Below, piece by piece: positions 174 through 29,884 of a stretch of DNA of 31,759 nucleotides; positions within the stretch are counted from its first letter, which is position 1, and every line of letters begins with the position of its first letter. The DNA is from a virus. Both the position numbers and the translations under genes were made by a program. The notes below the pieces were generated by a model that saw nothing but the letters and a program-made list of their open reading frames with translations, was not told the DNA's origin and ran no database searches. Location: positions 12,794 to 44,552 of IMG/VR virus record IMGVR_UViG_3300029319_000108; one strand, written 5' to 3'.

Positions 174-180
174 TAAATAG
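174..180 (-). promoter_or_regulatory. Putative late promoter element CTATTTA
   Basis: The minus strand reads CTATTTA in the context GCATTCTATTTATGG, 59 bases upstream of the start at 115 and directly after the capsid terminator. It is one of ten related heptamers found in gaps before virion genes. The promoter role is inferred from this recurrence and from its position after a terminator. Confidence 0.45.
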
Positions 181-198
181 AATGCGCATAAAAGAAAA

Positions 199-224
199 CC
201 CCGGTATCTCGAAAGATACCGGGG
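199..224 (-). terminator. Strong intrinsic terminator after the major capsid gene
   Basis: The minus strand has a perfect 11-bp stem, CCCCGGTATCT / AGATACCGGGG, closed by a TTCG tetraloop and followed by TTTTCTTTT. It begins about 28 bases after the capsid stop codon. This is a textbook rho-independent terminator and marks the end of the head operon. Confidence 0.93.
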
Positions 225-252
225 CTCAATTCAAACTAAATTAGTTTAGTTC

Positions 253-2001
253 TTAGCTAGTAGCACCAGACTCACCTAAGAGGCCACGAACAACAACCAA
301 ACCATACATATCAGGTCTGACCATTTTCTTGGCGTAACGAGTCATGACACCCTTACGCGGTACGAAGTCTTCCACACCAAAGATGGTAGGAGTGACCTGT
401 AGAGGTACGTAAGGAGCGTATACATAACCGCTCTCTAGGAAGCTGTTACCCTTGCGACCAACCAACACGAGGTTACGCGGGAAGTAAGGATCAACATAGA
501 CATCATACTTCTTGCTGAGATTACCAACTCTCTCTGCGCCAGCAACACCTCTAGCATCATCAACAGTCACATTTGCGCGGAAACCGGCAGTGAACTCAAG
601 AATGCTAGCAACCTCCGGAGAAGTTACGAGGAAGTTTGCGCCACCACGAAGAGTCTTTCTGTGGATGTTGGCCGACACGTCGTTGACTGTCTCAAGAAGT
701 GTCTCGTACCACTCGGATACAGTGCCTGTGAAGTCAGGAGCAGCCGAAGAAGCACCAATCTCAAGACCGGTATCTCTTGCCACGAAGAGGCCCGGTGAAC
801 GTGACCAGTAGTAAGTACCAGCTGTAGCACGCTTGATCAAGTCTTCCATAACCTCACGATCAATCTCAAGAGCAATCTGCTCAGAAAGAATTGATGTAAG
901 CTCAACCTCTGCGTCAAGGTTGTGGTAGGCGTTAAGATCTTGTCCTAGCTCCGGAGTCCACTTAGCCTTGAGCTTTTTGGTCATTGCGGTGACGGACACG
1001 GAATCAACCTTAAGGTCGATCTCCGGAATTCCCTCATCGTTCTCAAGACCCCAAGTGCTCTGACCAACGACGGCGCCAATCGCCTCTGCGGATCCCGCAG
1101 CAGGGGTGCCGGCAAAATCATCAGTCTCTGGGAACTTACAAGCACCACCAGTAGAACCGGTAAGCGTTTTCGCGAGGAAAGCTGTCGTCTCAGAACCCGT
1201 AGCAGCAACAACCATAAGAATGTGGTTCTGGGCAGTACCACTGAACTGGGTCAGTCTTCGAACAACAAGGCCATCTTGACCAGCGTTCGATCCTGAACCG
1301 GCAGAAAGCTGCCAATTCATTGCAACGAGATTAGCTTTGTTTAATTGAGCGAATTCGCTGGTTGCAATTTTACCAACAACAACTGCGGAGCCACTCGGGA
1401 TATCCGGATCGAACTCACAAATGCTAGCAATGTCCGTCTCACCGGGGAAAGCTTCTACTGAGCCGTGAAGCGATATCGCACTAGAGGCAAGAGAAGTAGA
1501 ACCTGTGGGGGAAGAGTAACCATTGCTGAGATCATAGAAGCTGCTCTGGAAAGAACCAGAGGTGGCCTCTGAGTTAAATCCTAGATCCATACCGCCGGTG
1601 ATCTCCTGACCGACCTTTGCGCCGCCGTAAAGCGACTCATTTGCTACACGAACACCACGAGTGTCGGTGTATTGGAAATCCAAGAAGAAGATGAGTCCAC
1701 TGGGGAGGCTCATCGGTTGGACGCTAACCAACTCGTTAGCAATCAAGCCACCAAAAACACGACGAACAATCGGGAAAGCAACAGCTGCGAAACCCTCGAC
1801 ATCGCCTTGTGCCATCGTGGAAGCCTCACGGAGAAGCTCCTTGGCTTGGTTCTCAAGAAGGCGAGCCATATTGTTTTTGGAATTCTCACCTTGTAGACCT
1901 TCGAGAAGACCAGTCTTCTCCCACTTCGAGAGTAGAGCAGCGCCTTCTTTTTTCATATCGCGATTAACGATACCTTCTGTTAATTTTTCAAGTACTGACA
2001 T
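253..2001 (-). CDS. gp23: Major capsid protein, T4 gp23-like
   Basis: This 582-residue protein forms the hexamers of the phage head shell. Recognition rests on the gp23-type segment VQPMSLPSG at residues 94-102, followed by LIFFLDFQYTDTRG. The C-terminal half also fits, with YDVYVDPY and SGYVYAPYVPLQ before a basic tail. T4 gp23 is 521 residues and is cut by gp21 after an [L/I]-x-E site. Here LLRE|A at residues 57-60 fits and would give a 59-residue propeptide, close to the 65 residues of T4. The start has a clear AAGGAG site, eight bases before the ATG. It lies 63 bp downstream of the scaffold gene gp22 start-to-stop cluster with only 11 bp between the genes, and is closed by a strong terminator. 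The extra length relative to T4 probably reflects an insertion around residues 150-300. Confidence 0.95.
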   Translation of the reverse strand: MSVLEKLTEGIVNRDMKKEGAALLSKWEKTGLLEGLQGENSKNNMARLLENQAKELLREASTMAQGDVEGFAAVAFPIVRRVFGGLIANELVSVQPMSLPSGLIFFLDFQYTDTRGVRVANESLYGGAKVGQEITGGMDLGFNSEATSGSFQSSFYDLSNGYSSPTGSTSLASSAISLHGSVEAFPGETDIASICEFDPDIPSGSAVVVGKIATSEFAQLNKANLVAMNWQLSAGSGSNAGQDGLVVRRLTQFSGTAQNHILMVVAATGSETTAFLAKTLTGSTGGACKFPETDDFAGTPAAGSAEAIGAVVGQSTWGLENDEGIPEIDLKVDSVSVTAMTKKLKAKWTPELGQDLNAYHNLDAEVELTSILSEQIALEIDREVMEDLIKRATAGTYYWSRSPGLFVARDTGLEIGASSAAPDFTGTVSEWYETLLETVNDVSANIHRKTLRGGANFLVTSPEVASILEFTAGFRANVTVDDARGVAGAERVGNLSKKYDVYVDPYFPRNLVLVGRKGNSFLESGYVYAPYVPLQVTPTIFGVEDFVPRKGVMTRYAKKMVRPDMYGLVVVRGLLGESGATS

Positions 2002-2012
2002 TTTAAATCTCC

Positions 2013-3065
2013 TTAATTATTTTTTAAGCCAGCGAGAAGTCTCATCCTATCAACGAAAGGATCAGTTCTCTTATCCTCTTTACGAGGAAGGAATGCTGAA
2101 GAACGCTTAGTTACTACTTCGTTCAGCGATTTTGGCTTAGGCGTTGAGGCGCTGCCCACTGCACTTTGAAGCGTTTCAAAGATAATTTTAGTTTCTTCAA
2201 CGGTTTTTGCATTAGAAATAGTTTCGACAATTTTATCTTTCTGTCGCTCATTTAACGAGGCACTATCTAAAACACGATTCTGGTACAATAGCTTTGCGTT
2301 GGAAAGGTTGACTTCTTCTAGTTTTTCTTTCATGCTATTGATTAATGTTCGGTATTTTTGGTTTCGCTCTGTTTCTTTTTGGAGCTTTCTATCTAGTTTT
2401 TGAATTCTCTTTTCGTAGGCTTCTTTTAAGTTTTCAATCTCTAGTTCTAGGGACTCTCTTTTAAGATCCTTCGCGCCGGCATCTTTTGCGGCTTTTTTCA
2501 TTGGCTCTTTTTTGTCTCCATCTTTATCCAGATCTAGGAAATCAGGCTTAGCCTCTTCCTCAAGCTCTTCTACTTCGTCGGTCTCTTCTAGGGTTTCCAA
2601 ATCTTCGTCAGAGGCTGTCTCCTCTTCAAGTTGTTCTTCTTCATCGTCTTCAAGGAGTGCTCTAATGACGTTTTCATCAAGCTCAATCTCAACGTCTTCG
2701 TCAACCTCTTCGGCCAACTCTTCACGGGCAGTCATCTCGGATGCATCAAGATCACCCTCTGCTTGAATTTCTGCTGCCATCATCTCTTCTAATTGATCTA
2801 GATCAAGAGTCACATATTCCTCTTCATCTGTTGTTACAGAGGACGGCAACTGCTCGACTACCGCTTCTCCAGTGTCTTCTTCAACAGTTAATTGAGCATC
2901 GTCGCTTTCTAGGTCAAGATCCATCTCGTCTTGTTCGAGAATTTTCTCTACCGCAGAACGAATGTCATCTGCATAATGTTCAATTATTGTTTCTTCGGCG
3001 CTCTTTTGAGCGGCTTCTTTTAGGGCTTCGGCATCAATTATTGCCTGTTCGAGCATGTTGGACAT
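2013..3065 (-). CDS. gp22: Prohead core scaffolding protein, T4 gp22-like
   Basis: This 350-residue scaffold assembles inside the prohead and is destroyed by the gp21 protease during maturation. Residues 45-175 are extremely rich in Asp and Glu. Residues 200-255 form a charged coiled coil. Residues 254-304 carry the conserved gp22-type block (LSNAKLLYQNRVLDSASLNE), and the C-terminus (SSAFLPRK then DPFVDRMRLLAGL) is also typical. An in-frame ATG eight codons further upstream exists, but AAAGGAG (minus strand, 3074-3080) lies correctly before the ATG at 3065, so I use that start. The gene sits directly before gp23, as in T4. Residues 178-189 carry an EF-hand-like DLDKDGDKKEPM motif. Confidence 0.92.
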   Translation of the reverse strand: MSNMLEQAIIDAEALKEAAQKSAEETIIEHYADDIRSAVEKILEQDEMDLDLESDDAQLTVEEDTGEAVVEQLPSSVTTDEEEYVTLDLDQLEEMMAAEIQAEGDLDASEMTAREELAEEVDEDVEIELDENVIRALLEDDEEEQLEEETASDEDLETLEETDEVEELEEEAKPDFLDLDKDGDKKEPMKKAAKDAGAKDLKRESLELEIENLKEAYEKRIQKLDRKLQKETERNQKYRTLINSMKEKLEEVNLSNAKLLYQNRVLDSASLNERQKDKIVETISNAKTVEETKIIFETLQSAVGSASTPKPKSLNEVVTKRSSAFLPRKEDKRTDPFVDRMRLLAGLKNN

Positions 3066-3100
3066 AATATAAACTCCTTTTGAAAACACTACATCACAAA

Positions 3101-3107
3101 TAAGTAG
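3101..3107 (-). promoter_or_regulatory. Putative late promoter element CTACTTA
   Basis: The minus strand reads GATTACTACTTATTTG, 36 bases upstream of the gp22 start, in the largest gap of the head cluster (3066-3249). This C-variant of the recurrent CTAYTTA heptamer would place a promoter just before the two most abundant head proteins. Confidence 0.45.
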
Positions 3108-3150
3108 TAATCATTTTGATTAAAAACCGTTTTTACTAGGAATTACAAAC

Positions 3151-3249
3151 CTAACCGGGCATGCCATCCGAAACATCCAGACTGGTGTGTGGCTCATTGG
3201 GAACCGACACACCAAATTTGAAGTTCTTATTGAGACTGCCCATATCCTG
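3151..3249 (-). other. In-frame open extension behind an amber stop
   Basis: The upstream 139-residue protein ends with GAG-TAG, and the same frame then stays open for 33 codons beginning CAG-GAT-ATG until a second TAG. The extension reads QDMGSLNKNFKFGVSVPNEP and continues to ...SLDVSDGMPG. It could be a readthrough tail, the remnant of a longer gene cut by a nonsense mutation, or a separate 30-residue ORF from the internal ATG at 3243. TAG is a normal stop elsewhere in the window (the gene ending at 3943), so global recoding is unlikely. A 33-codon open stretch is not rare by chance. Confidence 0.35.
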
Positions 3250-3669
3250 CTACTCGGGAATTTCTGTTAGGCCCGATCCAGTAAGGGCATACATACTGCC
3301 TGTCGGAATGTTTGTGAGAGAGGCATATAGCATAAAGCCCGCATTGGCATCTGTGTTAGTGATAAATATCTCTTTACATTTTACATCAAACGTAAAAGTA
3401 TCTTCATCAGAACTTAGTGAAATATAGTGGAAAGCGTCTAACACCTCGCCGGGGTCACTATCACTATTAAAGTGTATTTTAATTTCCTTGTCGTCTGCGG
3501 ATCCTGAATTGACAACTGTTATGCTCTTTGTTACATAAGGAAATTCTACTTTATGTTCTGTGCCGGCGCTTCCCATATCGGTAGTACCCGTTAGAAAAGG
3601 ATGACCAGAAATTTGATACGACCCTACATTTCTTAGTCCGACTCCATGTCCTGGATATGTTACTGCCAT
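3250..3669 (-). CDS. Small beta-rich virion-like protein, unknown function
   Basis: I do not recognise this 139-residue protein. It is mildly acidic, rich in Gly, Ser, Thr and Val, has no membrane segment or cysteine-motif, and looks like an all-beta domain. Its N-terminus, MAVTYPGHGVGLRNVGSYQI, and its position between bS21 and the scaffold gp22 suggest a capsid-associated product such as a decoration protein. That is inference from context. The start is supported by GAGGAG, about eight bases before the ATG. The stop is amber and is followed by an open in-frame extension of 33 codons, described separately. Confidence 0.75.
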   Translation of the reverse strand: MAVTYPGHGVGLRNVGSYQISGHPFLTGTTDMGSAGTEHKVEFPYVTKSITVVNSGSADDKEIKIHFNSDSDPGEVLDAFHYISLSSDEDTFTFDVKCKEIFITNTDANAGFMLYASLTNIPTGSMYALTGSGLTEIPE

Positions 3670-3694
3670 TTCATTCTCCTCGTAATTTCAATAA

Positions 3695-3701
3695 TAATTA
3701 G
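3695..3701 (-). promoter_or_regulatory. Weak variant of the late element (CTAATTA)
   Basis: The minus strand reads CCACTAATTATTATT, overlapping the bS21 stop codon and 26 bases upstream of the next start at 3669. It differs by one base from CTATTTA. Placement fits the other elements, but the match is weak and the sequence is AT-rich. Confidence 0.25.
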
Positions 3702-3931
3702 TGGTTCTTAAACCTATTCTCTCTTTCTCTTTGTAATTTATCTAAAACTTTTTTTCTTCGCAGGCGCTCTCTCTTCTTCTTCAAGGAGGGCTTTTCGTAC
3801 CTACTGTTTTCAATAAAAGATTCAATTACTCTTGCTTTCTTTGTCTTTTTAGAAAAGCGTCGAATCATCTTTTCGGCCGGTTCATCCCTGTATCTTGGTT
3901 TCACCTCTACATTAATTGGTCTTTTCGACAT
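3698..3931 (-). CDS. rpsU: Ribosomal protein bS21 homologue encoded by the phage
   Basis: This 77-residue, very basic protein matches the bS21 family, a small 30S protein near the anti-Shine-Dalgarno end of 16S rRNA. The family pattern is visible: V-x-V-x-x-R with an acidic-Pro step (RDEPAEKMIRRFSKK), then a K-A-R-V-I-E-S-F-x-E helix, then RYEKPS and a KKKRERLRRKK basic tail. Bacterial bS21 is about 70 residues, so this is full length. A good GGAAGGTGACTT leader precedes the ATG, 11 bases after the upstream stop. Phage bS21 genes are known in uncultivated phages and are thought to exchange with host bS21 to favour viral translation. Its place inside the head operon implies late expression. 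Confidence 0.9.
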   Translation of the reverse strand: MSKRPINVEVKPRYRDEPAEKMIRRFSKKTKKARVIESFIENSRYEKPSLKKKRERLRRKKVLDKLQRERENRFKNH

Positions 3932-3942
3932 AAGTCACCTTC

Positions 3943-4991: not shown

Positions 4992-5071
4992 TTATAAACC
5001 CTCATTTTGCGGGCGCAACCCGCGCGTTACTAGAACCCTTACAGCACCGACGAACAGGTTGTAGCGACCAT

Positions 5072-5368
5072 TTATCCGTCCAATAGCTTGTGCTCATATT
5101 TAACTCCATCATCTCCAAATACTGTACACAGGACATATGATGTCCCAGAACTTAACCATCCTAATAAAAACAAATTAGTCAAGTTATACTCAAATGTAAA
5201 TAGTTCTGTGTATTGATTAATCCCAAACAAAAAGGTGCCCACCCAAAAGCCTAAACACATTGGACATCTAAAAAACTTTTGAGGAGGTCTTATCTTATCA
5301 AAGATAGTTCCGTAGGCAAGAATTTGTGTAAGGCCATAAGCCACTAGAATAAAATATATTAGATCCAT
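5072..5368 (-). CDS. Small membrane protein, DUF1360-like
   Basis: This 98-residue protein has a hydrophobic N-terminal segment (about residues 3-20). It then has the CPMCLGFWVG motif at residues 35-44, a second membrane segment, and a third hydrophobic stretch near residues 65-82. The C-P-x-C-x-G-F-W pattern is typical of the DUF1360 family of small membrane proteins, some of them phage-encoded, with no firm function. It lies eight bases after the preceding gene and 80 bp before gp21, so it is co-transcribed with prohead genes. Membrane location is clear; a role in assembly or host-membrane modification is open. Confidence 0.75.
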   Translation of the reverse strand: MDLIYFILVAYGLTQILAYGTIFDKIRPPQKFFRCPMCLGFWVGTFLFGINQYTELFTFEYNLTNLFLLGWLSSGTSYVLCTVFGDDGVKYEHKLLDG

Positions 5369-5376
5369 TCAAGCCT

Positions 5377-6730: not shown

Positions 6731-8681
6731 TGTCTTTACGCTCCAAATCTTCAAGTATCATTTTAATATCTCGGTTGACTTCAAAAAGCCTAATCTCTTC
6801 CTGTTTATAAATAGTGTTCTTGTTTTCAGAAATGCCTTTTCCAAGCCCTAACAACTCTTTTGCGCCCGCAGGAAGGTAATTGTGTACCGTTTGTCTCTTG
6901 GGTAATCGCGCGACTTCAGGGGACTGCATATGTCGCTTTCGTGGGCCTATTGATTTTCTTTTATCATGTGTAACTGGCTTATACCAACCATGAGATTTGT
7001 CCGTAGTTGTTTTGCCAGTCTTCTTGTTTATATATGTGACCGGCTCATCACGCTTGCCTGGTGCCTCCATGCCTGGTGCTGATAAGAGTGCGGTATCACC
7101 ACCCTCTGGGGCGGGCGATTCAGGTTCGGGGGCTGCTTCAGGCTCTGGTGTTTCTTCTTCTCCTCCGAGATCAGCACCCAAGTCACCTCCTAGATCAAGG
7201 CCGCCGCCGGTAAACGCCCCTTCCCCTTCTGGTGCTCCGGTTGCCTCCAGGGCAGCTGCGGCATAACGATCATAGAACAATTCCCTTTGATTTCGCAAGA
7301 AGTCTTCCTCGGACATGTCAAATAGATTTCTCGCAATCCATCGCTTGCTGAAGAAGCCCTCAGCTGCCTGCGCAGCAACACTAAACTTGGTATTCCACTG
7401 CTCTAATTCTTGAAGTTCCGCAATCTTCGAAGGGTTGTGTAGCTTAAGCTTGAAGGATAACAGATCATCACCTCTGAAGCCTAATGTGTAAAGGTGAATA
7501 ATACCAATCTTTTCTAGTTCAGAAATGACAGCGCGCTGTAATCGCTGTACTGTCCTAGCAAATCGGATGTCCTTTTGCGCTAAAGTTGCCTTGTCTTCGT
7601 CGGCACCTTCCGACCTGGAGAGATATGAGGCGGGAATCTTAAGAGCAGAGAATAATTTATCTCTTAAATATTTAACGTCATCAATATCTCCAGTATAAGT
7701 TCCACCCGGTAGACTTTCAATCTTTGTTGAGGCCCCTCCACGAACTGGAATATAGTAATCTTCCTCTACGCTCATAGGATTGTAACGAAGATCCACTCGG
7801 CCAGTGTCCGGATCCACAATTTGGTTTCTTTTCATTGACGTGATCACTCGTTGCATATATTGCTCGACATCTTGAGGGGGAATATTTCCAACATCAACAT
7901 AAAAGATTCTTCTCTCTGGTGCGCGGACAATACGATAGGCCATCATCGCATCCTCTAACAATATAAGTTGTCTCCAAATTCGGCGTGCTCCATCTAAAAC
8001 AGAAGTTCCATAAGGGGCGAACTTATCGTTTCCTAGAATTCTAAAATGCGCAACTTGCCAATTCTCAAAAGTGACGCCGCCACTATTCCATTGGAACTGT
8101 ATATAGTTTGGATTATCGGGATCTTGACCTTCCATTCTCTCCACCTCGGCACTGGGGAGTCCTATCACCTGTCGAATACCCAACTCAGCATCGATGTCCA
8201 AATAAAGATAAAAATCGCCATATTTACACATGGTTCTGGACCATCCGAAAAGATTAAACTCTACATTTAAGACATTATAATAAAGCGTATTTAATAGTGA
8301 TTTAATCTCTTCGTCAGCAGTCTCAACCATAAGCATTTTTTGAATACTATTGTGAGTAGTCATTTCGTCAGCATAGATATCCAGAGCAGAAGCAATCTCT
8401 GGTGTGTATTCCATTTGTTCAAAATCGGAATATCTTTGTAATCTGCCTTGCGATTGCATCGTAAAGCTGGACATGTTATCGTAGGGATTATAACCTTTTC
8501 TTTCGAACTTTTGACCTCCAACATCTTTGAAAGTCTTGGCATATTTATCTAATCTTCTTCTTCTTAATTGACGAGTGTTTTGTGATCTAATATTAATAAG
8601 CGGGCCGGAAAACAAACGTGTCAATCGCTTATAAAGCGGTGAGTCTGGATTTCTTGTAGGTTTAGAATTTTGCGGTGCCAT
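6717..8681 (-). CDS. gp20: Portal vertex protein, T4 gp20-like
   Basis: The portal dodecamer nucleates the prohead, is the DNA channel and docks the terminase. The 654-residue sequence shows gp20 signatures: EIASALDIYADEMT at residues 95-108 and AYRIVRAPERRIFYVDVGN at residues 248-266. It also has QIVDPDTGR at 287-295, NPMSVEEDYYIPVR at 301-314 and an ESLPGG loop at 322-327. T4 gp20 has 524 residues, so this one is about 130 longer. The extra part is C-terminal: a Gly/Glu/Pro/Ala-rich stretch (about residues 490-555) followed by a basic segment and a final acidic helix. The start has an AAAGGGA site and lies three bases after the terminase stop. Confidence 0.95.
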   Translation of the reverse strand: MAPQNSKPTRNPDSPLYKRLTRLFSGPLINIRSQNTRQLRRRRLDKYAKTFKDVGGQKFERKGYNPYDNMSSFTMQSQGRLQRYSDFEQMEYTPEIASALDIYADEMTTHNSIQKMLMVETADEEIKSLLNTLYYNVLNVEFNLFGWSRTMCKYGDFYLYLDIDAELGIRQVIGLPSAEVERMEGQDPDNPNYIQFQWNSGGVTFENWQVAHFRILGNDKFAPYGTSVLDGARRIWRQLILLEDAMMAYRIVRAPERRIFYVDVGNIPPQDVEQYMQRVITSMKRNQIVDPDTGRVDLRYNPMSVEEDYYIPVRGGASTKIESLPGGTYTGDIDDVKYLRDKLFSALKIPASYLSRSEGADEDKATLAQKDIRFARTVQRLQRAVISELEKIGIIHLYTLGFRGDDLLSFKLKLHNPSKIAELQELEQWNTKFSVAAQAAEGFFSKRWIARNLFDMSEEDFLRNQRELFYDRYAAAALEATGAPEGEGAFTGGGLDLGGDLGADLGGEEETPEPEAAPEPESPAPEGGDTALLSAPGMEAPGKRDEPVTYINKKTGKTTTDKSHGWYKPVTHDKRKSIGPRKRHMQSPEVARLPKRQTVHNYLPAGAKELLGLGKGISENKNTIYKQEEIRLFEVNRDIKMILEDLERKDNAET

Positions 8682-11182: not shown

Positions 11183-11527
11183 TTAATGTTCAAAAGAAAT
11201 TGTTTGCCACTCCCCATCTGCAACAATTTTCAAGCGATGGGTGTCTTCTTCGTAAAGCATCAGGCCATTCAAGGCCGAAGTGGCTGTGGGCTTGTTGCTG
11301 CTTAATACCCTTGGAAGCAACACGCCAGCGTCGCTAGAGGATATTTCTAATATTGCCCCTGCTGCGGGGGTCGGGGTGCCAACACCAATTCTATTGTTAG
11401 GGCCGTCGACAACAAGCGTATCGTCTTGTCCGTCCATATAGACCATATCGTCACCACTACCTAGATCAATCTCGCCATCTACAATTAAGGATCCAGTTAT
11501 ATTAGCATTAGTACCATATTCAGACAT
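11183..11527 (-). CDS. Short fibre-tip-like protein
   Basis: This 114-residue acidic protein begins MSEYGTNANITGSLIVDGEI. It then has short Gly/Asp-rich beta repeats (DLGSGDDMVYMDGQDDTLVV) followed by RIGVGTPTPAAGAILEISSS and a C-terminal strand cluster ending in GEWQTISFEH. The IGVGTxxPxA..LEI pattern is common in phage fibre and virion surface proteins just before a receptor-binding or trimerisation head. It follows the large S74 fibre gene after a terminator and has its own CTATCTA element and GAGG site, so it may be expressed separately. A fibre tip or fibre-associated role is inferred. Confidence 0.68.
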   Translation of the reverse strand: MSEYGTNANITGSLIVDGEIDLGSGDDMVYMDGQDDTLVVDGPNNRIGVGTPTPAAGAILEISSSDAGVLLPRVLSSNKPTATSALNGLMLYEEDTHRLKIVADGEWQTISFEH

Positions 11528-11560: not shown

Positions 11561-11567
11561 TAGATAG
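11561..11567 (-). promoter_or_regulatory. Putative late promoter element (CTATCTA variant)
   Basis: The minus strand reads AAAAACTATCTATTATG, 34 bases before the start at 11527 and just after the terminator at 11573-11599. It has one mismatch to CTATTTA. Because transcription is stopped immediately upstream, a promoter is needed here for the packaging and head genes. Confidence 0.4.
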
Positions 11568-11622: not shown

Positions 11623-14115
11623 TTATTTATCTAATTTGGCCTTAAGAGCGTCAATCTGTGCAGATTGCTCTTGGATAGCAGCGACGAGTACGGAAGTCAA
11701 GCGACCGTAATCAACACCGTATAGACCTTCCTCGTTGCCGTGAACAGCCTGTGGAATGGCTCTCGCGAGTTCTTGGGCCATGAAGCCGAAGTCTCTTGAA
11801 CCATCTTTCTTCCAGGTGAAGTTAACAGCATTGAGAGAGTTTACAGTGCTGAGCGCGCCCTGAATCGGAGCAACATCAGTCTTGAGTCTCTCATCTGAAT
11901 AAGTTACGAAGGCAGCAGCACGAATCTTGTTTTTCGCGCTTGAGCCATCAGCAACATCAACAGCATACTCACCACTAGCGTCACCACCAATTGTGATGTG
12001 GTTGCTGCTACCATCTTGAGTGAACTCTAGACGGTTTTCAGAAGCATCATAAAGCATGAAGTGGTTGGCACTTCCACCGAAAAGCTTGAAGTCTACACCA
12101 GCGCCATCGCCACCTAACTCTAACATTTTAGAAACAACAATGTGCTCATCGCCATCATCAGTATTGAAAGACATGTAGGTGTTTGAACCCTCTTTAATTT
12201 CCAACGCACCATTCTGGTTGTCTGTCAAAGAGATGTCCATCTGAGAACCGTCAGCCTGAATGCTATCGAGTGAAATCGCACCAACATTTGTGATGTCGCC
12301 ATCAGAAACGCTTAGTGATGTTCCAACGAGAGCAGCGAAAGTACCAGCAGCTGCGGAGTTAGCACCGATAACAGTACCATCAATAGCACCACCATCAACA
12401 TTGATGTTGGTCATTGCCTGGCTGTTACAGTCCATGGCAGAACCAAGCTGGTCAATGTGACCAACGTCAACGTGAGCAGCTGACCATTGTAGTGCTGAAC
12501 TACCGAGTGCGCGGGCGCTATCAGTAGAAGGCACTAGGTCAGAGTCAAAACGACCAGTAGCGGTAATAGTGTCACTTGTAGCATTACCCAAATCAACGTC
12601 ACCATTGAGAGTAGCAGCACCATCAATTTGAACACCAGCGTCGAATGTCGCTGCCTCGGTAACACCGAGTGTACCACGAACGTTTGTCTCAACACCAGAA
12701 GCAGCGAGATCAACAGCACCAGCAACGTCAAGAGCGCCATCTGCGTTAATTGCTCCACTAACATTTAGTGCGCCAGCAGCAGTAACGGAACTAGCGAACT
12801 GGGCAGCACCAGAGCCAGAAAAGGTTGTGGCCACGAGAGCGGCGAAAGTACCGGCAGCTGCCGAGTTTCCACCAATAACGGTACCATCAATGACACCAGA
12901 GTCAACATTGATGTTGGTCATTGCTTGACTGGCGCAGTTAAGTGCGGCACCAAGAGCGTCAGCGCGTAGGTCATCGATGTAAGCAACACCATCAAGATAA
13001 AGATCCTTGAACTCAGCACCAGAAGCACCAAGATCAACATCATTGTCAGTCTCCGGTCGAAGAACACCATCCTGTAGGCGCATCTCGGTTGTTCCACCAA
13101 TATTGAAATCCATAGCACTGTTGGCGTTGTCCCATAGCATTGCCATGTGACCAGAAGAATCAGCACCACCACCAACTCTAAGACCACCACCATCAGCATT
13201 TGCTGCGGAAGCGCTTAAAGCAGCGACAATTCTTCTATCAGAGACCTCAAGGTCACTAACAGTTTGTGTAACACTATTAATAGTATTAACATCTAAGGTA
13301 TCAATTTGAGCATACGTAGCTGTTAGGTGAGTAATTGTGCCAAGCGCCTTGTTGCTGTCAAGAACAAGAGCCTTGCTAGCGGCAGCGGTACCAGCAGTAA
13401 CACCATCAAGATAACCAAGCTCGGTAGCATCAAGTGTAGTGGCATCAAGAGTAAAGCTTGTGTCACAAGAAAGAGTACCAGCGACAGTTAAAGCGCCATC
13501 GGCCAAGGTCATTAGATCAGAGTCAGAATCACAACCAATGGTTGAGCCATCATCCACTTTTAATGATTTGAGCGCTGTGTCGCCATCAGCATCAACAGCG
13601 AAACCAGTCATTGTGACCGTGCCGGCAGTCAAGTCACCAGTCATATCTAGATTACGGAAGCCAGAAGCATCCTTACTAGCATCAACAACAACAGCCTTGC
13701 TGGCTGCGACAGTACCATTAGTGATACCATCAAGTTTTTCCAGATCAGTCTCGTTGAGATCAGCGGAACCAATAATAAACGAAGTACCGGCAGTTACTGC
13801 GCCGGCGGCAGTGATGTGACGGAAGCCAGTGGCATCCTTACTAGCATCGACAACAACAGCCTTGTTGGCTGCTACGGTACCGTTAGTGATACCGTCAAGT
13901 TTTTCCAGATCAGTCTCGTCAAGATCGGCACTACCGATAACGAAAGAGCTTTCCGCCTCAACTGAACCAGCGGAGTTTAAACCGCGATTAAAGTAAACTA
14001 ATTCTGAGCCAGCGGAGCCAGACAGGTAAATAGAACCTGAATTTGCTGGTTCGGAGCCAGTATATCTTTGTAGATCTACATATTTTCCATATGAACTTAC
14101 TGTAGCTATAGACAT
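11623..14115 (-). CDS. Large tail fibre with S74 intramolecular chaperone
   Basis: This 830-residue fibre is rich in Ala, Gly, Asp, Ser and Thr. The shaft (residues 55-265) is built of repeats with the core DLEKLDGITNGTVAA. A middle region repeats MTNINVD-G-IDGTVIG-NSAAAGTFAAL twice. The end is a Peptidase_S74 domain: SDERLK at residues 740-745 supplies the Ser-Lys dyad, followed by FTWKKDGSRDFGFMAQEL and a C-terminal coiled coil. In this family the domain helps the shaft trimerise and then cuts itself off just before that serine. AAGGAGG lies ten bases before the ATG. A CTACTTA element sits in the gap upstream and a terminator downstream. Confidence 0.9.
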   Translation of the reverse strand: MSIATVSSYGKYVDLQRYTGSEPANSGSIYLSGSAGSELVYFNRGLNSAGSVEAESSFVIGSADLDETDLEKLDGITNGTVAANKAVVVDASKDATGFRHITAAGAVTAGTSFIIGSADLNETDLEKLDGITNGTVAASKAVVVDASKDASGFRNLDMTGDLTAGTVTMTGFAVDADGDTALKSLKVDDGSTIGCDSDSDLMTLADGALTVAGTLSCDTSFTLDATTLDATELGYLDGVTAGTAAASKALVLDSNKALGTITHLTATYAQIDTLDVNTINSVTQTVSDLEVSDRRIVAALSASAANADGGGLRVGGGADSSGHMAMLWDNANSAMDFNIGGTTEMRLQDGVLRPETDNDVDLGASGAEFKDLYLDGVAYIDDLRADALGAALNCASQAMTNINVDSGVIDGTVIGGNSAAAGTFAALVATTFSGSGAAQFASSVTAAGALNVSGAINADGALDVAGAVDLAASGVETNVRGTLGVTEAATFDAGVQIDGAATLNGDVDLGNATSDTITATGRFDSDLVPSTDSARALGSSALQWSAAHVDVGHIDQLGSAMDCNSQAMTNINVDGGAIDGTVIGANSAAAGTFAALVGTSLSVSDGDITNVGAISLDSIQADGSQMDISLTDNQNGALEIKEGSNTYMSFNTDDGDEHIVVSKMLELGGDGAGVDFKLFGGSANHFMLYDASENRLEFTQDGSSNHITIGGDASGEYAVDVADGSSAKNKIRAAAFVTYSDERLKTDVAPIQGALSTVNSLNAVNFTWKKDGSRDFGFMAQELARAIPQAVHGNEEGLYGVDYGRLTSVLVAAIQEQSAQIDALKAKLDK
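12328..12929 (-). repeat. Two-copy coding repeat in the fibre gene
   Basis: Two copies of about 95 bp lie at roughly 12328-12424 and 12835-12929 and encode MTNINVD-G-IDGTVIG-NSAAAGTFAAL. They match closely at the DNA level, for example the shared run TCAACATTGATGTTGGTCAT on the plus strand. They are fibre shaft modules and could recombine with each other to change shaft length. Confidence 0.75.
13330..13947 (-). repeat. Three tandem-like shaft repeats in the fibre gene
   Basis: Units lie at about 13816-13947, 13651-13782 and, more diverged, 13330-13458. The first two encode GSADL-ETDLEKLDGITNG and a following VVVDASKDA-GFR, with a 55-residue period. They share most bases, including the run CAAGTTTTTCCAGATCAGTC on the plus strand. 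The third keeps only the LDGVTAGTAAASKA core. Confidence 0.8.
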
Positions 14116-14167: not shown

Positions 14168-14174
14168 TAAGTAG
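14168..14174 (-). promoter_or_regulatory. Putative late promoter element CTACTTA
   Basis: The minus strand reads GCCTCTACTTATGATAG, 53 bases before the large fibre start and 15 bases past the stop of the preceding fibre gene. It belongs to the CTAYTTA set. Confidence 0.4.
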
Positions 14175-15291: not shown

Positions 15292-15298
15292 TAAGTAG
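15292..15298 (-). promoter_or_regulatory. Putative late promoter element CTACTTA
   Basis: The minus strand reads TTAACTACTTACTTTACG, immediately after the TAA of the lysis-block protein and 24 bases before the second fibre's start. Same heptamer as at 3101 and 14168. Confidence 0.45.
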
Positions 15299-16364: not shown

Positions 16365-16595
16365 CTAATTTTTTCTATTAAAAATTTCAGCTAAAACCCA
16401 TACGGCAACCAAGCCGACGAGCCCTTCAGCACCCAAGGTTTTTGTGACGGCAAGAACATTGCCGACAACATCCACCGGAAAGAATGCAACACTAGCACCA
16501 AATAGCACCTGAAGCACAACGGCCAATGCTAATACCGCGAGTCCTAACTCGGTAAGCTGCCGTGCCCATCCAGTAGCAGTTTGTAGTTTATCCAT
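16365..16595 (-). CDS. Small holin-like membrane protein (second)
   Basis: This 76-residue protein has two clear hydrophobic segments. The first is about residues 16-40 (LGLAVLALAVVLQVLFGASV) and the second about 56-71 (EGLVGLVAVWVLAEIF), with an N-terminal amphipathic region and a basic end. AAAAAGGAGG precedes the ATG, among the best ribosome-binding sites in the window, and a CTATTTA element lies 30 bases upstream. It opens the lysis-type cluster. Holin or antiholin is the likely role; which of the two small proteins forms the pore cannot be decided from sequence. Confidence 0.7.
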   Translation of the reverse strand: MDKLQTATGWARQLTELGLAVLALAVVLQVLFGASVAFFPVDVVGNVLAVTKTLGAEGLVGLVAVWVLAEIFNRKN

Positions 16596-16624: not shown

Positions 16625-16631
16625 TAAATAG
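16625..16631 (-). promoter_or_regulatory. Putative late promoter element CTATTTA
   Basis: The minus strand reads GAATACTATTTACTTAC, 30 bases before the start of the first lysis-type gene (16595) and after the stop of the beta-helix gene. Exact match to the consensus. Confidence 0.5.
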
Positions 16632-16653: not shown

Positions 16654-17886
16654 CTATTCGGTCTGATCCACAAGGTCAGAAGCGTCGCCTCCGTTGGAAT
16701 TAACATAGGGTATATTGCCGGCTATATCAGTAAACTCCTGTGTTGATTCTTGGGGTGCCCTTCTCAATGAGGGTGGTCCCTTTATGGCTAAAGATAGCGG
16801 CGGCTCAGCAGATGAGTCATTTTTGGCTCTATAGTTGCTGGCCAGGTTTTTATAACCTTGTATCACAAAATCCCCACTAAAGTTAGGCTGTGGTTGTGTC
16901 TCATAGTCATTCCAGTACGGAGGAGGGAACTCAAAGCATCCAATATCAGGAGCAGCCCCTTCTGGTCTTGTGGCACCAGATATGTCAACAACAATACCAT
17001 CGAAAGCGATACCAGCATCAACCGCAGGCGAACTGGCCAGCAAATCGTAATTTGCTGCTATCGTTGCGTCAGATCCCTTTGCGTCTCCGTTTACGAATAG
17101 GGGGTCTGTATCTATAATATCTCCCGTTCCAGCACTTCCATTGGCATTGTCAGCATAATTTCTAAAATCTTCCCCAGAGACATCTAATAGGTTATAGGTA
17201 TGATCGTCAGAGCCAATTCCTTTACCAGAACCAGTAACAATACAATCTATAACCTTTGACCAAGCGGCCACTATCAATCCTGTGTTTGAGGCACCTCGGT
17301 GGATAAATGTAGAGAAACTTGCTGTATTGGTGGTGGGAGTATATCCCTGCAATAATGGGTTTGTACCTGCGCTTGCTGTTATTAAGCAATTGCTTATCTC
17401 TAGTCCGTTTTCAGAGTTTATGGGTGTGGCAGTGCCATCAAAATATAAAACGGATTGCTTTATTGTGGAGGGTGTCCCAGTGTTGTCGTAGGTGTGAGAA
17501 CCTAACTTGGGAGTTTCATGAATAAAGCACCCTGATATATGAAATTTACTATAACTAGAGTCGCCTTTATAAATAGTTTGCGACGTTCCGCCTTTTATTT
17601 CCAGTCCAATAAGGGTCAAGTTTTCACCATATACTGTAGCAAACTGAGAGCCTCCCGTTGAATCAATAACTGGTCGACCTAATTCGCTCGCAGTATGGCG
17701 TATTGTTAATTGATCGGTAGATATAGTTAATTGATTTTCTGAATATGTGCCTTCATCGATAATCTCTATGACATCTAGTCTAGTTCCTGCTGCGCTAATT
17801 GCCGAAGCAATGGTTAACTTTGGCGCAGTTTGATCGGTGCCTGCGTTAGAATCATTTCCATTTTTAGCAACATAGTACGTAGCCAT
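16654..17886 (-). CDS. Right-handed beta-helix virion protein, tailspike-like
   Basis: This 410-residue protein begins MATYYVAKNGNDSNAGTDQT, the usual entry to secreted and phage beta-helix proteins: Y-V-x-x-x-G-N-D-x-N-x-G-T, then a P-x-x-T-I-x-x-A-I step. Rungs with LTIRHTA, LTLIGLEIKGG and FHISGCFIHE follow, and near residue 300 a closing P-D-I-G-C-F-E motif as in polysaccharide-lyase-like helices. The last 90 residues are a separate Pro/Ser-rich segment (YWNDYETQPQPNFSGDFVIQ) that may be a connector. No catalytic residues are evident. It may bind or cut cell-surface polysaccharide. The ATG has a GAGG site and a CTATTTA element upstream. Confidence 0.8.
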   Translation of the reverse strand: MATYYVAKNGNDSNAGTDQTAPKLTIASAISAAGTRLDVIEIIDEGTYSENQLTISTDQLTIRHTASELGRPVIDSTGGSQFATVYGENLTLIGLEIKGGTSQTIYKGDSSYSKFHISGCFIHETPKLGSHTYDNTGTPSTIKQSVLYFDGTATPINSENGLEISNCLITASAGTNPLLQGYTPTTNTASFSTFIHRGASNTGLIVAAWSKVIDCIVTGSGKGIGSDDHTYNLLDVSGEDFRNYADNANGSAGTGDIIDTDPLFVNGDAKGSDATIAANYDLLASSPAVDAGIAFDGIVVDISGATRPEGAAPDIGCFEFPPPYWNDYETQPQPNFSGDFVIQGYKNLASNYRAKNDSSAEPPLSLAIKGPPSLRRAPQESTQEFTDIAGNIPYVNSNGGDASDLVDQTE

Positions 17887-17903: not shown

Positions 17904-17910
17904 TAAATAG
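17904..17910 (-). promoter_or_regulatory. Putative late promoter element CTATTTA
   Basis: The minus strand reads TATTCTATTTACAGAAT, 18 bases before the beta-helix start and just past the hairpin at 17913-17930. It would restart transcription after the DNA-metabolism island. Confidence 0.45.
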
Positions 17911-17965: not shown

Positions 17966-20900
17966 TTATGTCTCAGCTACGTGCGCATACCCGTCCTGTT
18001 TGTTGATTGTAATTTCCATATCAACACAGTCCTTCAAAGAGTCCAGGTGTGAAATAAGCAGTACTGTTTTAAAATACGACTTAACAATTTCCAAAATGGA
18101 GACAAATCCATCCATATTCTCCGCATCCAAAGCAGTCCCAGGTTCATCTAAAATAAATATATCAGATTTAGGCAAAGATGATACAGAAAGCAACGCCAAA
18201 CGAATGGCCATAGAAACAATGGTCTTCTCTGCGCCGGAACCCATTTCAATTGGTCTGGGTTCGTGTTTTGGGTGTTTTATGAACACTCTTAAGTGCTTGT
18301 CATCTGCCTCAAAGAACGCTTCAAATTCTACAATGTTCGCTAGTACTTTCGCGATCTCTTCATTAATGACTGGCAATTTTCTTTTGATAATATCATATGC
18401 AATCCCATTTGGATGCATGCAACGCATATAAAGATCATAAGCTGAAAACTCCTCCCGTAAATTAGCCAACTCTTGCTTTTGGTCTTCCAGGGATTTAAGT
18501 TTCTGCTCTAATGAGCCGTGCTCTTTATAAAACTCCAAAAGTTTGCGCTGACACTTTTCTAATTCTCTTTCCTTCTCTATATAAATACTCTTCTCTTCCT
18601 CAAATTCTTTGATGAAGGTTTCCTTGTTTTCAATAACCTCCCTATTGGAGTGATATTCTTCAGACTTTTCTTTTAAGCCCTCCAGTTCTTTTTCTAACGA
18701 TTTAATCTCAATGTTGGTCTTATCAACTAATAGCTGATCAGTAGAGATGTCATTCTCAATTTGGTTCCTTCTTGTAAGAAGTTGCTGGTACTTGGCAAGA
18801 TGTTCCTCAATCTTTCCCACATTAAGATTATCAATTTCTTGAATTGTTGCTGTCTTGTTGTTCTCTAAAACAGAACACTCTTTGTTTGTGATGGAGAGGT
18901 TGTCGACAGCCACATAAGCATCCTTAATAAATTTACAGTGCGAATACTCCGATCCACAAGGCACTTCCTTTAAAAGCTCCGCTTTCTTTTCCTGGTTTTG
19001 TATTTCCAGTTCTTTTGTCTTGATCTCATTAATAATTTGATCTAACTTATTCTGCTGTTCCTCGGCTGTTTCTTTTCTCTCTTGGAGGTCGGCAGCATCA
19101 AAGCCCTCCAAGAAAGTTTCAATCTTTTCAAGAAGTTCCTTGTTTTCTCCTACCTTGTCGCCAAGTTGAATTGTCTGTTCAATTTTATCCGTAATGATCC
19201 CTTCGTTGCTGGAGATGCTCTTTTCCACCGCTTCAATGTTAATTACTTCTGCTGGAATAAGATCGATCTTTTTCTGTATTTCATCGGCCTTGTGGCGATG
19301 AAGATCGATCTCTTCTTTTAGCTCCTCGCAGCTTTGAGAGTGCTTTTCAGTTTCTTTTTCATTTAAGAGAAGATTAGTATATGCCTCTGTGATGTCGCTA
19401 TCAAACTCTTTTCCCTCCAGTCTCTTTAGGGCACCGCGCAGATCTGATGCATCATCTTTGGCTAATTTATACTTTTTATCGAACACCTCAAGATCAAGAA
19501 ACTTTGCAAGAATTTCTTTTCTTCGTGTTGAGCCCTCGCCAATAAACTGAAGCGCTCCAAGCTGAGAAGACATCGAAGTTAAGAGGAAATCCTCAACTGC
19601 TCCAAAGTGCTTGCGAATGTGTTTGTCGGTCTGATTTCTGCTAAGGCCATTTAAGCTCTCAGTCTCTTCCATTACGGCGTCATAGCACTCAAAGTTGACG
19701 TCAGTCTTGGCTTCAAGCGTCTCGTCACCCTTCAATCGTTTAATGTACTTCTCTGCTCTTCTATCAACCGTATATTTCTTCTCTCCAATAGAGATGGTTA
19801 CTCTTCCGCCACCTTCTTCTTTGTTCTGGTTGATGACGTTGAGGTTTTTCCTTTCGTTTTTAGAAGTAGAATTAAAAAGAGTAAAAAGAATGCTATCAAT
19901 AATGCTAGACTTGCCAGAAAAGTTTTTACCAAAAATGCCCACGATTCCAGCAAGCTTATTAAAGTTAATAACATTTTCTGGCCCATAGTTAAAGAGATTG
20001 TCCCACTCAATCTGTTCAAGCCTCCAGTTAACATTACGATTGACTTCTTCTGTTTCTTCAATCGCAACATTATATTTGCTATTTAATCTAAATACTTTCT
20101 TAATTAAATCATCGTCCGGATTATAATCTTTTAAGTACTCTTCAATTAGCTCTTCTTGGATCACTGGATCTCGAAGGTTGTCCTTTTCTAAATCCTCCGT
20201 TAATTCTTCTACGTTCCCTCTTTGTCCAGAAGCGCGATTTAAAAATGTAATACTCTCGGGACTAAACCTATGCTTGGCAACCTCAACGGCCTTCTTCATT
20301 TTATCAATGGGAAGGTTGTTGTTTGAGACTAGACGAAGGCGCGCACCAGTCTCTACGTCTGCTTTTGTTGGGATCCTTCCAGTTGGGGTTAATTCCAGGG
20401 TTACGAATGGCTTCGGGTTTTTAAGAATAAAGTGCTCAACATTCCAATCGTCTTTATCCTTAATGTCCCAAATCAAAAAGCCCTTATCGTTTGTCTCGCC
20501 GTGGTTCTGCTGGACCGTGCTCCCACAATATCTAATTCTACCTTTAAGATCCAGCGCTTGATTGGTCTTGTGAATATCTCCTAGAAAGGCAAAGTCATGG
20601 CCCTTAAAAATGGACATGTCGTTTTCGCCATGGTCCATCTTCCATCCCAAATCCGTTTCACAGCCGCTAATTGAGCCGTGGTAAAGGGCAATATTGACCC
20701 TCTCCGAGTTGGTTGGCGCAACCCAACTGTCCCTATCAAACACCGACAAAACATTTAATGTAAAAAAATCATCCAGATTTACCTCTCCTGAATTTTTAAG
20801 TAGAAATAAATTGGGTAGATTTAATGCTTCTACAATAGGAGTTAGGGCGTCCTGTCTGCTTTTGTTTTTTAGATTTCCATCATGATTGCCAAGAATAATA

Positions 20901-21121
20901 TAAGTTGGCGCGATGGCTTCAAGGTTTCTAAAAAAATCTGAACACAATTCAACAAACTCTGGGGAGATTTGCGTCTTTGTGTGGGCAATATCGCCGCAAT
21001 GAATAATATAATCTACTTTTTCCTCACGGAGTGTTTCATATAGCCGGTCGAATACTGCTCGGTATTCAAAGTGATATTTTAAATTTTTAATATGTGTGTC
21101 AGCAATATGCGCGAATTTCAT
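17966..21121 (-). CDS. Fused SbcD-SbcC (gp47-gp46) recombination nuclease-ATPase
   Basis: This single 1051-residue chain carries both halves of the Mre11-Rad50-type complex that resects DNA ends for recombination and replication. The N-terminal metallophosphoesterase (SbcD, Mre11, T4 gp47) has Asp8 and His10 (ADTH), Asp43 (CGDIAH), GNHD at 78-81, His148 (YHGS) and GDIH at 181-184. The Rad50-like ATPase begins near residue 365: Walker A GIFGKNFSGKSS at 395-406, coiled coils to about 890, a hook-like apex with Cys722 and Cys729, signature GSGAEKT at 961-967 and Walker B FILDEP at 989-994. T4 encodes these as separate proteins of 339 and 560 residues. The ATG at 21121 has AAGGAAAA upstream and a TAATG overlap with the preceding gene; a 16-codon longer frame lacks such a site. 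Confidence 0.95.
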   Translation of the reverse strand: MKFAHIADTHIKNLKYHFEYRAVFDRLYETLREEKVDYIIHCGDIAHTKTQISPEFVELCSDFFRNLEAIAPTYIILGNHDGNLKNKSRQDALTPIVEALNLPNLFLLKNSGEVNLDDFFTLNVLSVFDRDSWVAPTNSERVNIALYHGSISGCETDLGWKMDHGENDMSIFKGHDFAFLGDIHKTNQALDLKGRIRYCGSTVQQNHGETNDKGFLIWDIKDKDDWNVEHFILKNPKPFVTLELTPTGRIPTKADVETGARLRLVSNNNLPIDKMKKAVEVAKHRFSPESITFLNRASGQRGNVEELTEDLEKDNLRDPVIQEELIEEYLKDYNPDDDLIKKVFRLNSKYNVAIEETEEVNRNVNWRLEQIEWDNLFNYGPENVINFNKLAGIVGIFGKNFSGKSSIIDSILFTLFNSTSKNERKNLNVINQNKEEGGGRVTISIGEKKYTVDRRAEKYIKRLKGDETLEAKTDVNFECYDAVMEETESLNGLSRNQTDKHIRKHFGAVEDFLLTSMSSQLGALQFIGEGSTRRKEILAKFLDLEVFDKKYKLAKDDASDLRGALKRLEGKEFDSDITEAYTNLLLNEKETEKHSQSCEELKEEIDLHRHKADEIQKKIDLIPAEVINIEAVEKSISSNEGIITDKIEQTIQLGDKVGENKELLEKIETFLEGFDAADLQERKETAEEQQNKLDQIINEIKTKELEIQNQEKKAELLKEVPCGSEYSHCKFIKDAYVAVDNLSITNKECSVLENNKTATIQEIDNLNVGKIEEHLAKYQQLLTRRNQIENDISTDQLLVDKTNIEIKSLEKELEGLKEKSEEYHSNREVIENKETFIKEFEEEKSIYIEKERELEKCQRKLLEFYKEHGSLEQKLKSLEDQKQELANLREEFSAYDLYMRCMHPNGIAYDIIKRKLPVINEEIAKVLANIVEFEAFFEADDKHLRVFIKHPKHEPRPIEMGSGAEKTIVSMAIRLALLSVSSLPKSDIFILDEPGTALDAENMDGFVSILEIVKSYFKTVLLISHLDSLKDCVDMEITINKQDGYAHVAET

Positions 21122-21390
21122 TATTTTCCTTCGTTTTTCTCTGGCGAGTAGGATGAGAAATACTTCCACTCCCCGCTTGCAATCCTTTTGGCCACCTCTG
21201 ATCCTGTAAATTCCCCGACAAAAATATCAGTCTTACTTGACCACCTCATCTCAATGAGATAACCTCCAGATTTACTATATGTCTTTTTAATTACCACTCC
21301 CATTTTTCCATCAGCAATATATAAGTCACCAACATTAATATATTTGCCGGCAGGAGTGAACATTTTTTTAAGAAGTTTGGTGACGTTCAT
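21121..21390 (-). CDS. Small beta-rich protein of the DNA-metabolism island
   Basis: This 89-residue protein is taken from the ATG at 21390. A GTG five codons upstream is possible, but it would overlap the -10 box described below and has GAGG only two bases away. The middle reads NVGDLYIADGKMGVVIKKTY and then a YLIEMRWSS strand, like a small SH3 or KOW-type barrel, and the C-terminus is Lys- and aromatic-rich. I know no family for it. Its stop overlaps the SbcCD-fusion start (TAATG), so its translation should feed that gene. No Shine-Dalgarno sequence fits the ATG at 21390; leaderless initiation is suggested. Confidence 0.7.
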   Translation of the reverse strand: MNVTKLLKKMFTPAGKYINVGDLYIADGKMGVVIKKTYSKSGGYLIEMRWSSKTDIFVGEFTGSEVAKRIASGEWKYFSSYSPEKNEGK

Positions 21391-24628: not shown

Positions 24629-24632
24629 AACA

Positions 24633-25679: not shown

Positions 25680-25696
25680 GTATCCCTTCCTCTAAA

Positions 25697-26629
25697 TTAC
25701 TGTTTCTTAATAAATCTCACCGGAACATCAATTCTATATCCAGTGGTGGCGCCAGTTATTCTAATTGTCGTGTCGATAAGACGAATATCGGTTGAGCCGA
25801 ATGTTGCCGTAGTTCCCAACTGCGTAAACAAATAGTCGCTCGATCTCAAGTTAACCGATGAAGCAATTCTAAATTCGATCTTTGTTCCTCTAGGTCCACG
25901 AATATTAGCATCGGCAACATCTGTATCTTCCGTGTTTTGCGGCTTTGGCGGTATTTGATTGATATATGGAGCACCAGAAATATAGTAACTGGCAATATTG
26001 TCATCATCAATAAAAGCTGGTGTGGCATTTGTTGCTCCATCAGGAGTTGTAAGAGCGCCAAATCTATTGTCCATTTCTATGATGTATTGTGATTCACGAA
26101 GCTCCGGATCAATCGTGTAACTAGCAGGGATCTCTGTGGTATCCAGTCCCTGATCGACTCTAATTGTTGTGTTGCCGCCTTGCGGATTAAGGCCATTCAA
26201 ATATTGGCCAGCATCATCAGTCTTTCCACTTCCAAGAGAGTCCAGCGTATCCTGATCAACCAAAACAGCAAAAGATCCTGATGCGACTCCTGTATCAGAA
26301 TTTGGCTCGTATTGAGTGTTTGTGGTCTCGTTTAGTTTAAGTATCGGCAAGTAAAGAAGATTATTATTCGAAACGGTTATCAATTTCGATTTCATTGTCG
26401 CTGTATTATTAGTAAAGGCTTCTAGAACTGGAGTTTGTAGAATTTCTAAGTCGTAGTATGCAGAACCGCTAGTGTGGTCTGAATTGTACGTGGTGTAGTC
26501 AATCTCGTCATCTCCGAAAGAATATTTAACGATCTTGAACGAGCCATCTCCTCTGGCCAGTCTCATTCTTCCGGTATCAGTTAGTACCGCGTCAAGAATA
26601 ATGTCGCCACTATTATCTAAAAATGCCAT
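25697..26629 (-). CDS. Conserved phage structural protein, unknown position in virion
   Basis: This 310-residue protein begins MAFLDNSGDIILDAVLTDTG, then RMRLARGDGSFKIVKYSFGD and EIDY. I recall this N-terminus in structural proteins of marine T4-like phages, but the exact virion location is not known to me. The body is beta-rich with many Thr, Asn and Asp residues; the C-terminus (TTIRITGATTGYRIDVPVRF) looks like a strand pair. AAAGGAG lies eight bases before the ATG, and an exact CTATTTA element is 21 bases upstream. Confidence 0.75.
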   Translation of the reverse strand: MAFLDNSGDIILDAVLTDTGRMRLARGDGSFKIVKYSFGDDEIDYTTYNSDHTSGSAYYDLEILQTPVLEAFTNNTATMKSKLITVSNNNLLYLPILKLNETTNTQYEPNSDTGVASGSFAVLVDQDTLDSLGSGKTDDAGQYLNGLNPQGGNTTIRVDQGLDTTEIPASYTIDPELRESQYIIEMDNRFGALTTPDGATNATPAFIDDDNIASYYISGAPYINQIPPKPQNTEDTDVADANIRGPRGTKIEFRIASSVNLRSSDYLFTQLGTTATFGSTDIRLIDTTIRITGATTGYRIDVPVRFIKKQ

Positions 26630-26649
26630 AATAATACTCCTTTACTTAT

Positions 26650-26656
26650 TAAATAG
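26650..26656 (-). promoter_or_regulatory. Putative late promoter element CTATTTA
   Basis: The minus strand reads TATAACTATTTAATAAG, 21 bases before the start at 26629, in a 33-base gap. Exact match to the recurrent heptamer with the preferred preceding A. Confidence 0.5.
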
Positions 26657-26662
26657 TTATAT

Positions 26663-29563: not shown

Positions 29564-29583
29564 TTGTAGCCACCTTGAACATC

Positions 29584-29859
29584 TTAATACTCTCCTGCCG
29601 GGCTGCTATATGAACTGCGGGGGCCGGCCATGCGTCTCTCTTCTTCATTCGTTGGCCCCATGCGAACTCCGGATTCCTCTAGAGGGCTTATTGCGACGGC
29701 GATTGCTGAGGCTTCCGGAATAACCGTATCGGTGCCCATCACTTCTTGAGTTAGTAAAAGGCCCATGGCAGTGTCGGAAACATCAAACATGTAAGCAGTA
29801 CTTACATATTCTGCTTTCATATCGCTGCTATCCATTAATTGTGTTAAATCAAAGGACAT
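29584..29859 (-). CDS. Small unknown protein of the tail block
   Basis: This 91-residue acidic protein begins MSFDLTQLMDSSDMKAEYVS. It has an Ala/Thr/Met-rich middle (AYMFDVSDTAMGLLLTQEVM) and a flexible C-terminus (RRMAGPRSSYSSPAGEY). The start has GAGGAAG and an exact CTATTTA element 19 bases upstream. It may be a small virion component or chaperone for the large protein after it; nothing in the sequence decides. Confidence 0.65.
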   Translation of the reverse strand: MSFDLTQLMDSSDMKAEYVSTAYMFDVSDTAMGLLLTQEVMGTDTVIPEASAIAVAISPLEESGVRMGPTNEEERRMAGPRSSYSSPAGEY

Positions 29860-29877
29860 CTTATCTTCCTCTTATTT

Positions 29878-29884
29878 TAAATAG
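29878..29884 (-). promoter_or_regulatory. Putative late promoter element CTATTTA
   Basis: The minus strand reads AATTACTATTTAAAATA, 19 bases before the start at 29859, in the 46-base gap after the stop of the first gene of the window's right side. Exact match. Confidence 0.5.

Follow-up and report, generated by a model that had tools for sequence, protein, structure and literature searches.

Gene content of the window and its relatives

The window, i.e. the whole stretch of 31,759 nucleotides analysed here, corresponds to bases 12794-44552 of a 44,552-base IMG/VR record, which is a fragment. In the window PHROG matches were obtained for the prohead protease, major head protein, portal, tail fibres and large terminase, and in the record outside the window for tail sheath, tube and tape measure. 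By these matches the window covers virion genes of a phage related to T4. Megablast comparison of the window with phages gave no match; by terminase comparison the nearest cultured phages were Flavobacterium phage immuto and Microcystis phage Mel-JY01 (approximately 44% identity). Viral contigs were rich in relatives of the portal protein. Eighty relatives were scored, and four near-complete marine relatives (G001, G002, G005 and G006, 185-190 kb) were available. Kinship among the sequences inflates the counts reported below, although de-duplication at 60% identity was applied to the sites. A simple script assigned the gene starts.

Some genes of the minus strand deserve mention in their own right. 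A single 1067-aa protein (17966-21169) matches both the SbcD-like and the SbcC-like subunits of the T4 recombination nuclease, which in T4 are two separate proteins, gp47 and gp46. Within the head gene cluster, a 77-aa protein (3698-3931) weakly matches ribosomal protein S21, and in Mel-JY01 an S21 match likewise lies near the prohead protease. The adjoining tail-fibre genes 11623-14115 and 14189-15268 match the same C-terminal tail-fibre families. Directly before the prohead protease gene there is a tiny conserved reading frame (4992-5071), which ends in LQPVRRCCKGSSNARVAPAK (RPVAHCCGGSSIARVTPALEEK in the relatives' version); it is below the usual length limits of gene calling and is unannotated.

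Enrichment of the heptamer in gaps of the gene strand

The original prediction held that CTAYTTA, recurring in gaps before virion genes, is likely a diverged late promoter, and all heptamer sites that it listed are present in the window. There are 16 copies of CTAYTTA, 15 of them on the minus strand, which is the gene strand. The total is ordinary (10.8 expected by shuffling, with 7 of 100 shuffles reaching 16), thus the signal lies in strand and place. Gaps account for 2.9% of the bases, yet eight of the 15 gene-strand copies fall in them (P 3e-9), and the gaps of the other strand hold none; shuffled gaps contained 0.47 copies on average and at most 4 in 2000 shuffles.

The strand-specific enrichment holds in a wider set. 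In the 44.5-kb record, including the 12.8 kb outside the window, CTATTTA was the top 7-mer of the gaps, present in sense orientation in 9 of 24 gaps and in none antisense. In the 80 relatives, too, it was the most enriched gap 7-mer, with a sense copy in 76 of 220 gaps and an antisense copy in none; it ranked first in the whole sequences of G001, G002 and G006 and second, after CTAATTA, in G005. In aligned sites the fourth position was A, C or T and rarely G, and the box is therefore written CTAHTTA. In the gaps of the own record CTAHTTA was found in 13 of 24, and the T4 box TATAAAT, in sense orientation, in one. The median distance between box and gene start was about 30-36 bases; for T4 TATAAAT it is 35.

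A second element upstream of the box

When 137 de-duplicated gap sites were aligned on the box, GG was found at -21/-20 and TTT at -17 to -15 counted from the C. In T4 numbering (T-13 A-12 ... A-8) these positions are approximately -35/-34 for the GG and -31 to -29 for the TTT. The element has the form aGGcwTTTw, and its centre lies near -32, some 18 bases before the box. In promoters that follow a terminator, the GGGG-TTTT end of the terminator can coincide with the -35 position, as at 174, where a terminator hairpin (about 195-224) has the -35-like GGGGTTTT (195-202, minus strand) as its 3' end. That the GG..TTT pattern consists merely of terminator tails was rejected, as a hairpin ends there in 15 of the 137 sites and the signal persists in the other 122: GG at -21 occurred in 33 of these (2.9 per position expected, P 1e-25) and TTT at -17 in 48 (6.2 expected). 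The EM gain was 198 for gap sites vs 105 for in-gene controls. The signal is partial, GG being present in about four in ten sites and TTT in approximately half.

The boxes do not coincide with host sigma-70 promoters (TTGACA + TATAAT): none of the gaps in the four relatives holds both box types; host-type TTGAC promoters occupy separate gaps (Fisher 2e-4).

A promoter model trained on the relatives alone was scanned over the 44.5-kb record. The top 20 matches were all on the gene strand and 12 of them were in gaps; the best was a copy embedded in a gene, at 6808 (see below).

Sites in the window and their conservation

All sites described here are on the minus strand. The boxes CTATTTA at 174-180, 17904-17910 (before gene 16654-17886) and 29878-29884 (before gene 29584-29859) and CTACTTA at 15292-15298 (before tail-fibre gene 14189-15268) were identified by motif count and model scan; a -35-like GGCTAAA of the 29878 promoter lies at 29899-29905. 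CTACTTA at 14168-14174, before tail-fibre gene 11623-14115, had a weak score. For other sites orthologous gaps could be compared: a sense box was present in all 17 (0 antisense) for CTACTTA at 3101-3107, which precedes gene 2013-3089 and has by site alignment a -35 element GGTTTTT at 3122-3128, in 6 of 7 for CTATTTA at 16625-16631 (before gene 16365-16595) and in 4 of 4 for CTATTTA at 26650-26656 (before gene 25697-26629). Orthologous gaps retain the box down to approximately 42% protein identity, though the gap sequence itself has diverged.

Two further sites had been listed as near-matches. CTAATTA at 3695-3701, before gene 3250-3669, proved to be a true site, as the fourth position allows A, and a sense box was present in 15 of 17 orthologous gaps. 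CTATCTA at 11561-11567, before gene 11183-11527, is doubtful, given its low score (3.6) in the relatives-trained model. The description that nearly every gap has a box before a virion gene was slightly overstated: a sense box is absent from the 80-bp gap before the prohead protease gene and from the 31-bp gap before the primase gene, and some of the genes downstream of boxes are not known virion genes. Genes that have no box in the window mostly have none in the relatives (major capsid protein 0/30, protease 0/52, portal 4/83, large terminase subunit 1/71).

In-gene copies had been treated as background. This did not apply to two of them, which are conserved at synonymous positions and on that ground are read as probable embedded promoters. 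The first is CTATTTA at 5197-5203, upstream of the prohead protease and within the small gene 5072-5368: in all 51 orthologs that keep the leucine its codon is CTA (13% expected), while neighbouring codons vary. The other, CTATTTA at 6808-6814 near the 3' end of the portal gene, is the top-scoring model match, and in the model scan it has a -35 element GGCATTT at 6830-6836; the box is kept in 61 of 74 orthologs (0 antisense), and the ACT codon was found in 50 of 50, compared to a usage of 34%. The copy at 22866 is not conserved, the box being carried by 2 of 14 orthologs, and the copy at 8995 was ambiguous by the codon test because the large terminase protein is conserved there.

A diverged gp55-like sigma in the relatives

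A gp55-like sigma, for which the original prediction proposed to look, was found in a diverged form in full-length relatives; the window's 44.5-kb record encodes none, and Pfam Sigma70_ner had no match in it. The link between sigma and box is therefore drawn from the relatives. The profile phrog_234 matched the canonical set (T4, S-PM2, P-SSM2, S-WAM1, HTVC008M, KVP40, Melnitz, phiN3 and Cr30) with E 1e-50 to 1e-72, and 9 of 12 long marine-type relatives with E 2.5e-9 to 2e-4 (immuto 0.008). The diverged proteins are approximately 230-240 aa long, about 50 aa longer than T4 gp55, and in profile-profile comparison they matched canonical gp55 with E 2.5e-9. A profile built from ten rows, immuto among them, found immuto (9e-82), LR756508 (7e-49) and Mel-JY01 (8e-41), and weakly the canonical gp55 of S-PM2 (7e-8) and also of phiN3. 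The diverged sigma is encoded by all four near-complete marine relatives tested as well as by immuto, Mel-JY01 and LR756508; 520 viral-contig stretches encode it.

With Pfam sigma families the diverged sigma does not score, and its sequence links to gp55 alone; searching PDB sequences with its profile found nothing. L085, L174 and their relatives carry the protein with no convincing Pfam match and a weak PHROG match, hence standard annotation will miss it in most such phages.

In the search with the predicted structure sigma factors filled the VIA list, and domain 2 superimposed on sigma-A domain 2 with 2.6 A over 95 residues. Together with the phrog_234 match, the structural alignment shows that the region 2 fold is present. 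The extra C-terminal domain, modelled alone (pLDDT 91), had its best match with region 4 of sigma-H (Z 7.8, 2.7 A, 73 residues), a Z in the range where chance matches between helical folds occur; further region 4 rows followed below sigma-H, and Foldseek gave no significant match for this domain. The models are suggestive of a sigma region 4 fold.

Changes in the box and in the sigma

In T4, gp55 contacts A-12 by Y97, A-9 by N13 and H95, and A-8 by T99 (PMC7892883). Aligned on the T4 box TATAAATA, CTAHTTA differs at -10 and -9. In an alignment of distant sequences, on which this comparison rests, the equivalent of N13 is N in 9 of 9 canonical and T in 17 of 19 diverged sigmas, that of R57 is T in 19 of 19 diverged sigmas, that of T99 is S or Q (S in 18 of 19), and Y97 is kept in all canonical and diverged sigmas. 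Since N13, which contacts -9, is replaced while the base at -9 is changed, the residue change may fall at the pocket for the changed base.

Across phages, box type tracks sigma type. Gaps of canonical phages have ATAAATA in sense orientation, those of the window group, immuto and Mel-JY01 CTAHTTA or TATTTAT; phiN3, Cr30, S-WAM1 and RM378 gave too few matches to be judged. The exception is LR756508, which has the same sigma type and neither box in the 50 kb examined. Reading the box as the reversed T4 TATAAATA was considered, since the immuto TATTTATA is exactly that reverse complement; a change of two central bases is the simpler explanation.

Immuto and Mel-JY01 share with the window group the diverged sigma family and sense TATTTAT in late gaps. 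They differ in that the box may lack its C in immuto and usually does so in Mel-JY01, that a clear -35 signal was seen in neither, and that Pol III alpha was not found. An altered late box is also known, from published description, in another T4 relative, Aeromonas phage Aeh1, which has a/gC at -13/-12 (PMC2988020), whereas the window group changes -10/-9 and adds C at -14.

Possible uncoupling from the sliding clamp

In T4, transcription of the late genes depends on gp33 and on the gp45 clamp, and the late promoters lack a -35 element (PMC2988020). In the four near-complete relatives, immuto, Mel-JY01 and LR756508, neither gp33 (phrog_254, which found T4, S-PM2 and phiN3), nor gp45 (phrog_223 and PF02768), nor a bacterial beta-clamp domain was detected; T4 gp45 had no match in the four marine relatives by phmmer and BLASTP. 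That gp33 and gp45 were not detected may be due to the limited reach of the profiles. Pol III alpha is encoded by LR756508 and by all four marine relatives, in the latter in place of T4's polymerase, and G001 has DnaB helicase in addition. G001 also encodes a GroEL-type chaperonin, an IMP dehydrogenase and a ribonucleotide-reductase-like protein (L100:10997-12568, L100:5716-6735 and L099:15237-17093).

Because absence judged by profiles is weak evidence, clamp independence of late transcription in this group is put forward as a hypothesis. The further reading, that the driver would be sigma region 4 and the -35 element rather than the sliding clamp, and that gp33 and gp45 would be absent because marine members use a Pol III-type polymerase, seems to us evenly poised between right and wrong.

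Interpretation

The reading of the heptamer as a diverged late promoter is supported by these observations, with firing late in infection as its presumptive part; the -35 element, the extra sigma domain and the two conserved in-gene copies, which are probably promoters, go beyond it. We consider it likely that CTAHTTA as -10 and aGGcwTTTw as -35 element are read by the host RNA polymerase carrying a gp55-related sigma. In the proposed mechanism CTAHTTA would be the -10 element of late promoters in this T4-related group, and a phage sigma of gp55 ancestry, bound to the host polymerase, would read it together with the -35 element. Domain 2 would melt the DNA, taking A-12 and A-8 as gp55 does, but with T instead of A at -9. 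The C-terminal domain, acting as region 4, would hold the beta flap and the -35 element, and its DNA contact would replace the roles that gp33 and the sliding clamp gp45 have in T4.

The sigma-E -35 motif is GGAACTT, and the GG of the present element looks ECF-like, which would suit late promoters read by an alternative sigma of the host or by some other phage factor, rather than by the gp55-like protein. This is unlikely, however: the diverged sigma is encoded in all four marine relatives, immuto, Mel-JY01 and LR756508, box type follows sigma type with LR756508 excepted, and the TTGAC promoters lie in other gaps, with zero overlap. A short conserved word before genes would equally befit an operator for a phage activator, the polymerase using another, unseen box; we hold this to be very improbable, because the distance to gene starts equals that of the T4 late box, the heptamer aligns with the T4 box except at -10 and -9, a -35-like partner stands at the right spacing, and no other box is prominent between heptamer and ribosome-binding site. 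Least probable of all is a role in the mRNA, for instance in processing or as a leader signal, for though the heptamer is strand-specific and upstream of genes, both the fixed-distance GG..TTT partner and the embedded, synonymously conserved copies far from start codons suit DNA recognition better.

The proposed gp55-related sigma with its two elements resembles two known systems. With T4 late promoters (gp55, gp33, gp45; PMC2988020, PMC7892883) it shares an A/T-rich -10 box, the start distance, the virion genes and, in the relatives, a gp55-related sigma that retains Y97. It differs by CTAHTTA in place of TATAAATA, the -35 element, the extra domain of the longer sigma, the undetected gp33 and gp45, and Pol III alpha in marine relatives. 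The predicted layout of domains 2 and 4 and a -35 element with GG are shared with two-domain bacterial sigmas (sigma-H, ECF group), from which the diverged sigma differs in that its sequence ties to gp55 and Pfam sigma families stay below score.

No report was found that connects CTATTTA with a late promoter, and TATTTATA was met as T4 template strand and in unrelated papers; in the open-access literature searched (subscription papers and preprints being outside this scope) the CTAHTTA box and this sigma form are unreported. Late promoters of uncultured phages are usually sought with TATAAAT (PMC3037559, PMC9004378).

Judged from comparative evidence, the late genes of many uncultured T4-like phages from the sea, which form a large group, very probably have CTAYTTA as their start signal, and CTAHTTA gives a practical rule by which late genes can be marked in uncultured phages. 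The results suggest that in this group virion genes are switched on by a non-textbook route. The T4 late promoter is the textbook case of a promoter that has no -35 element and needs the replication clamp; a related, widespread marine group whose promoters have a -35 element and whose sigma is longer offers a natural comparison for the joint change of sigma and box. If the clamp is indeed dispensable there, the coupling of late transcription to replication, which is the rule in T4, would not be general across T4-related phages.
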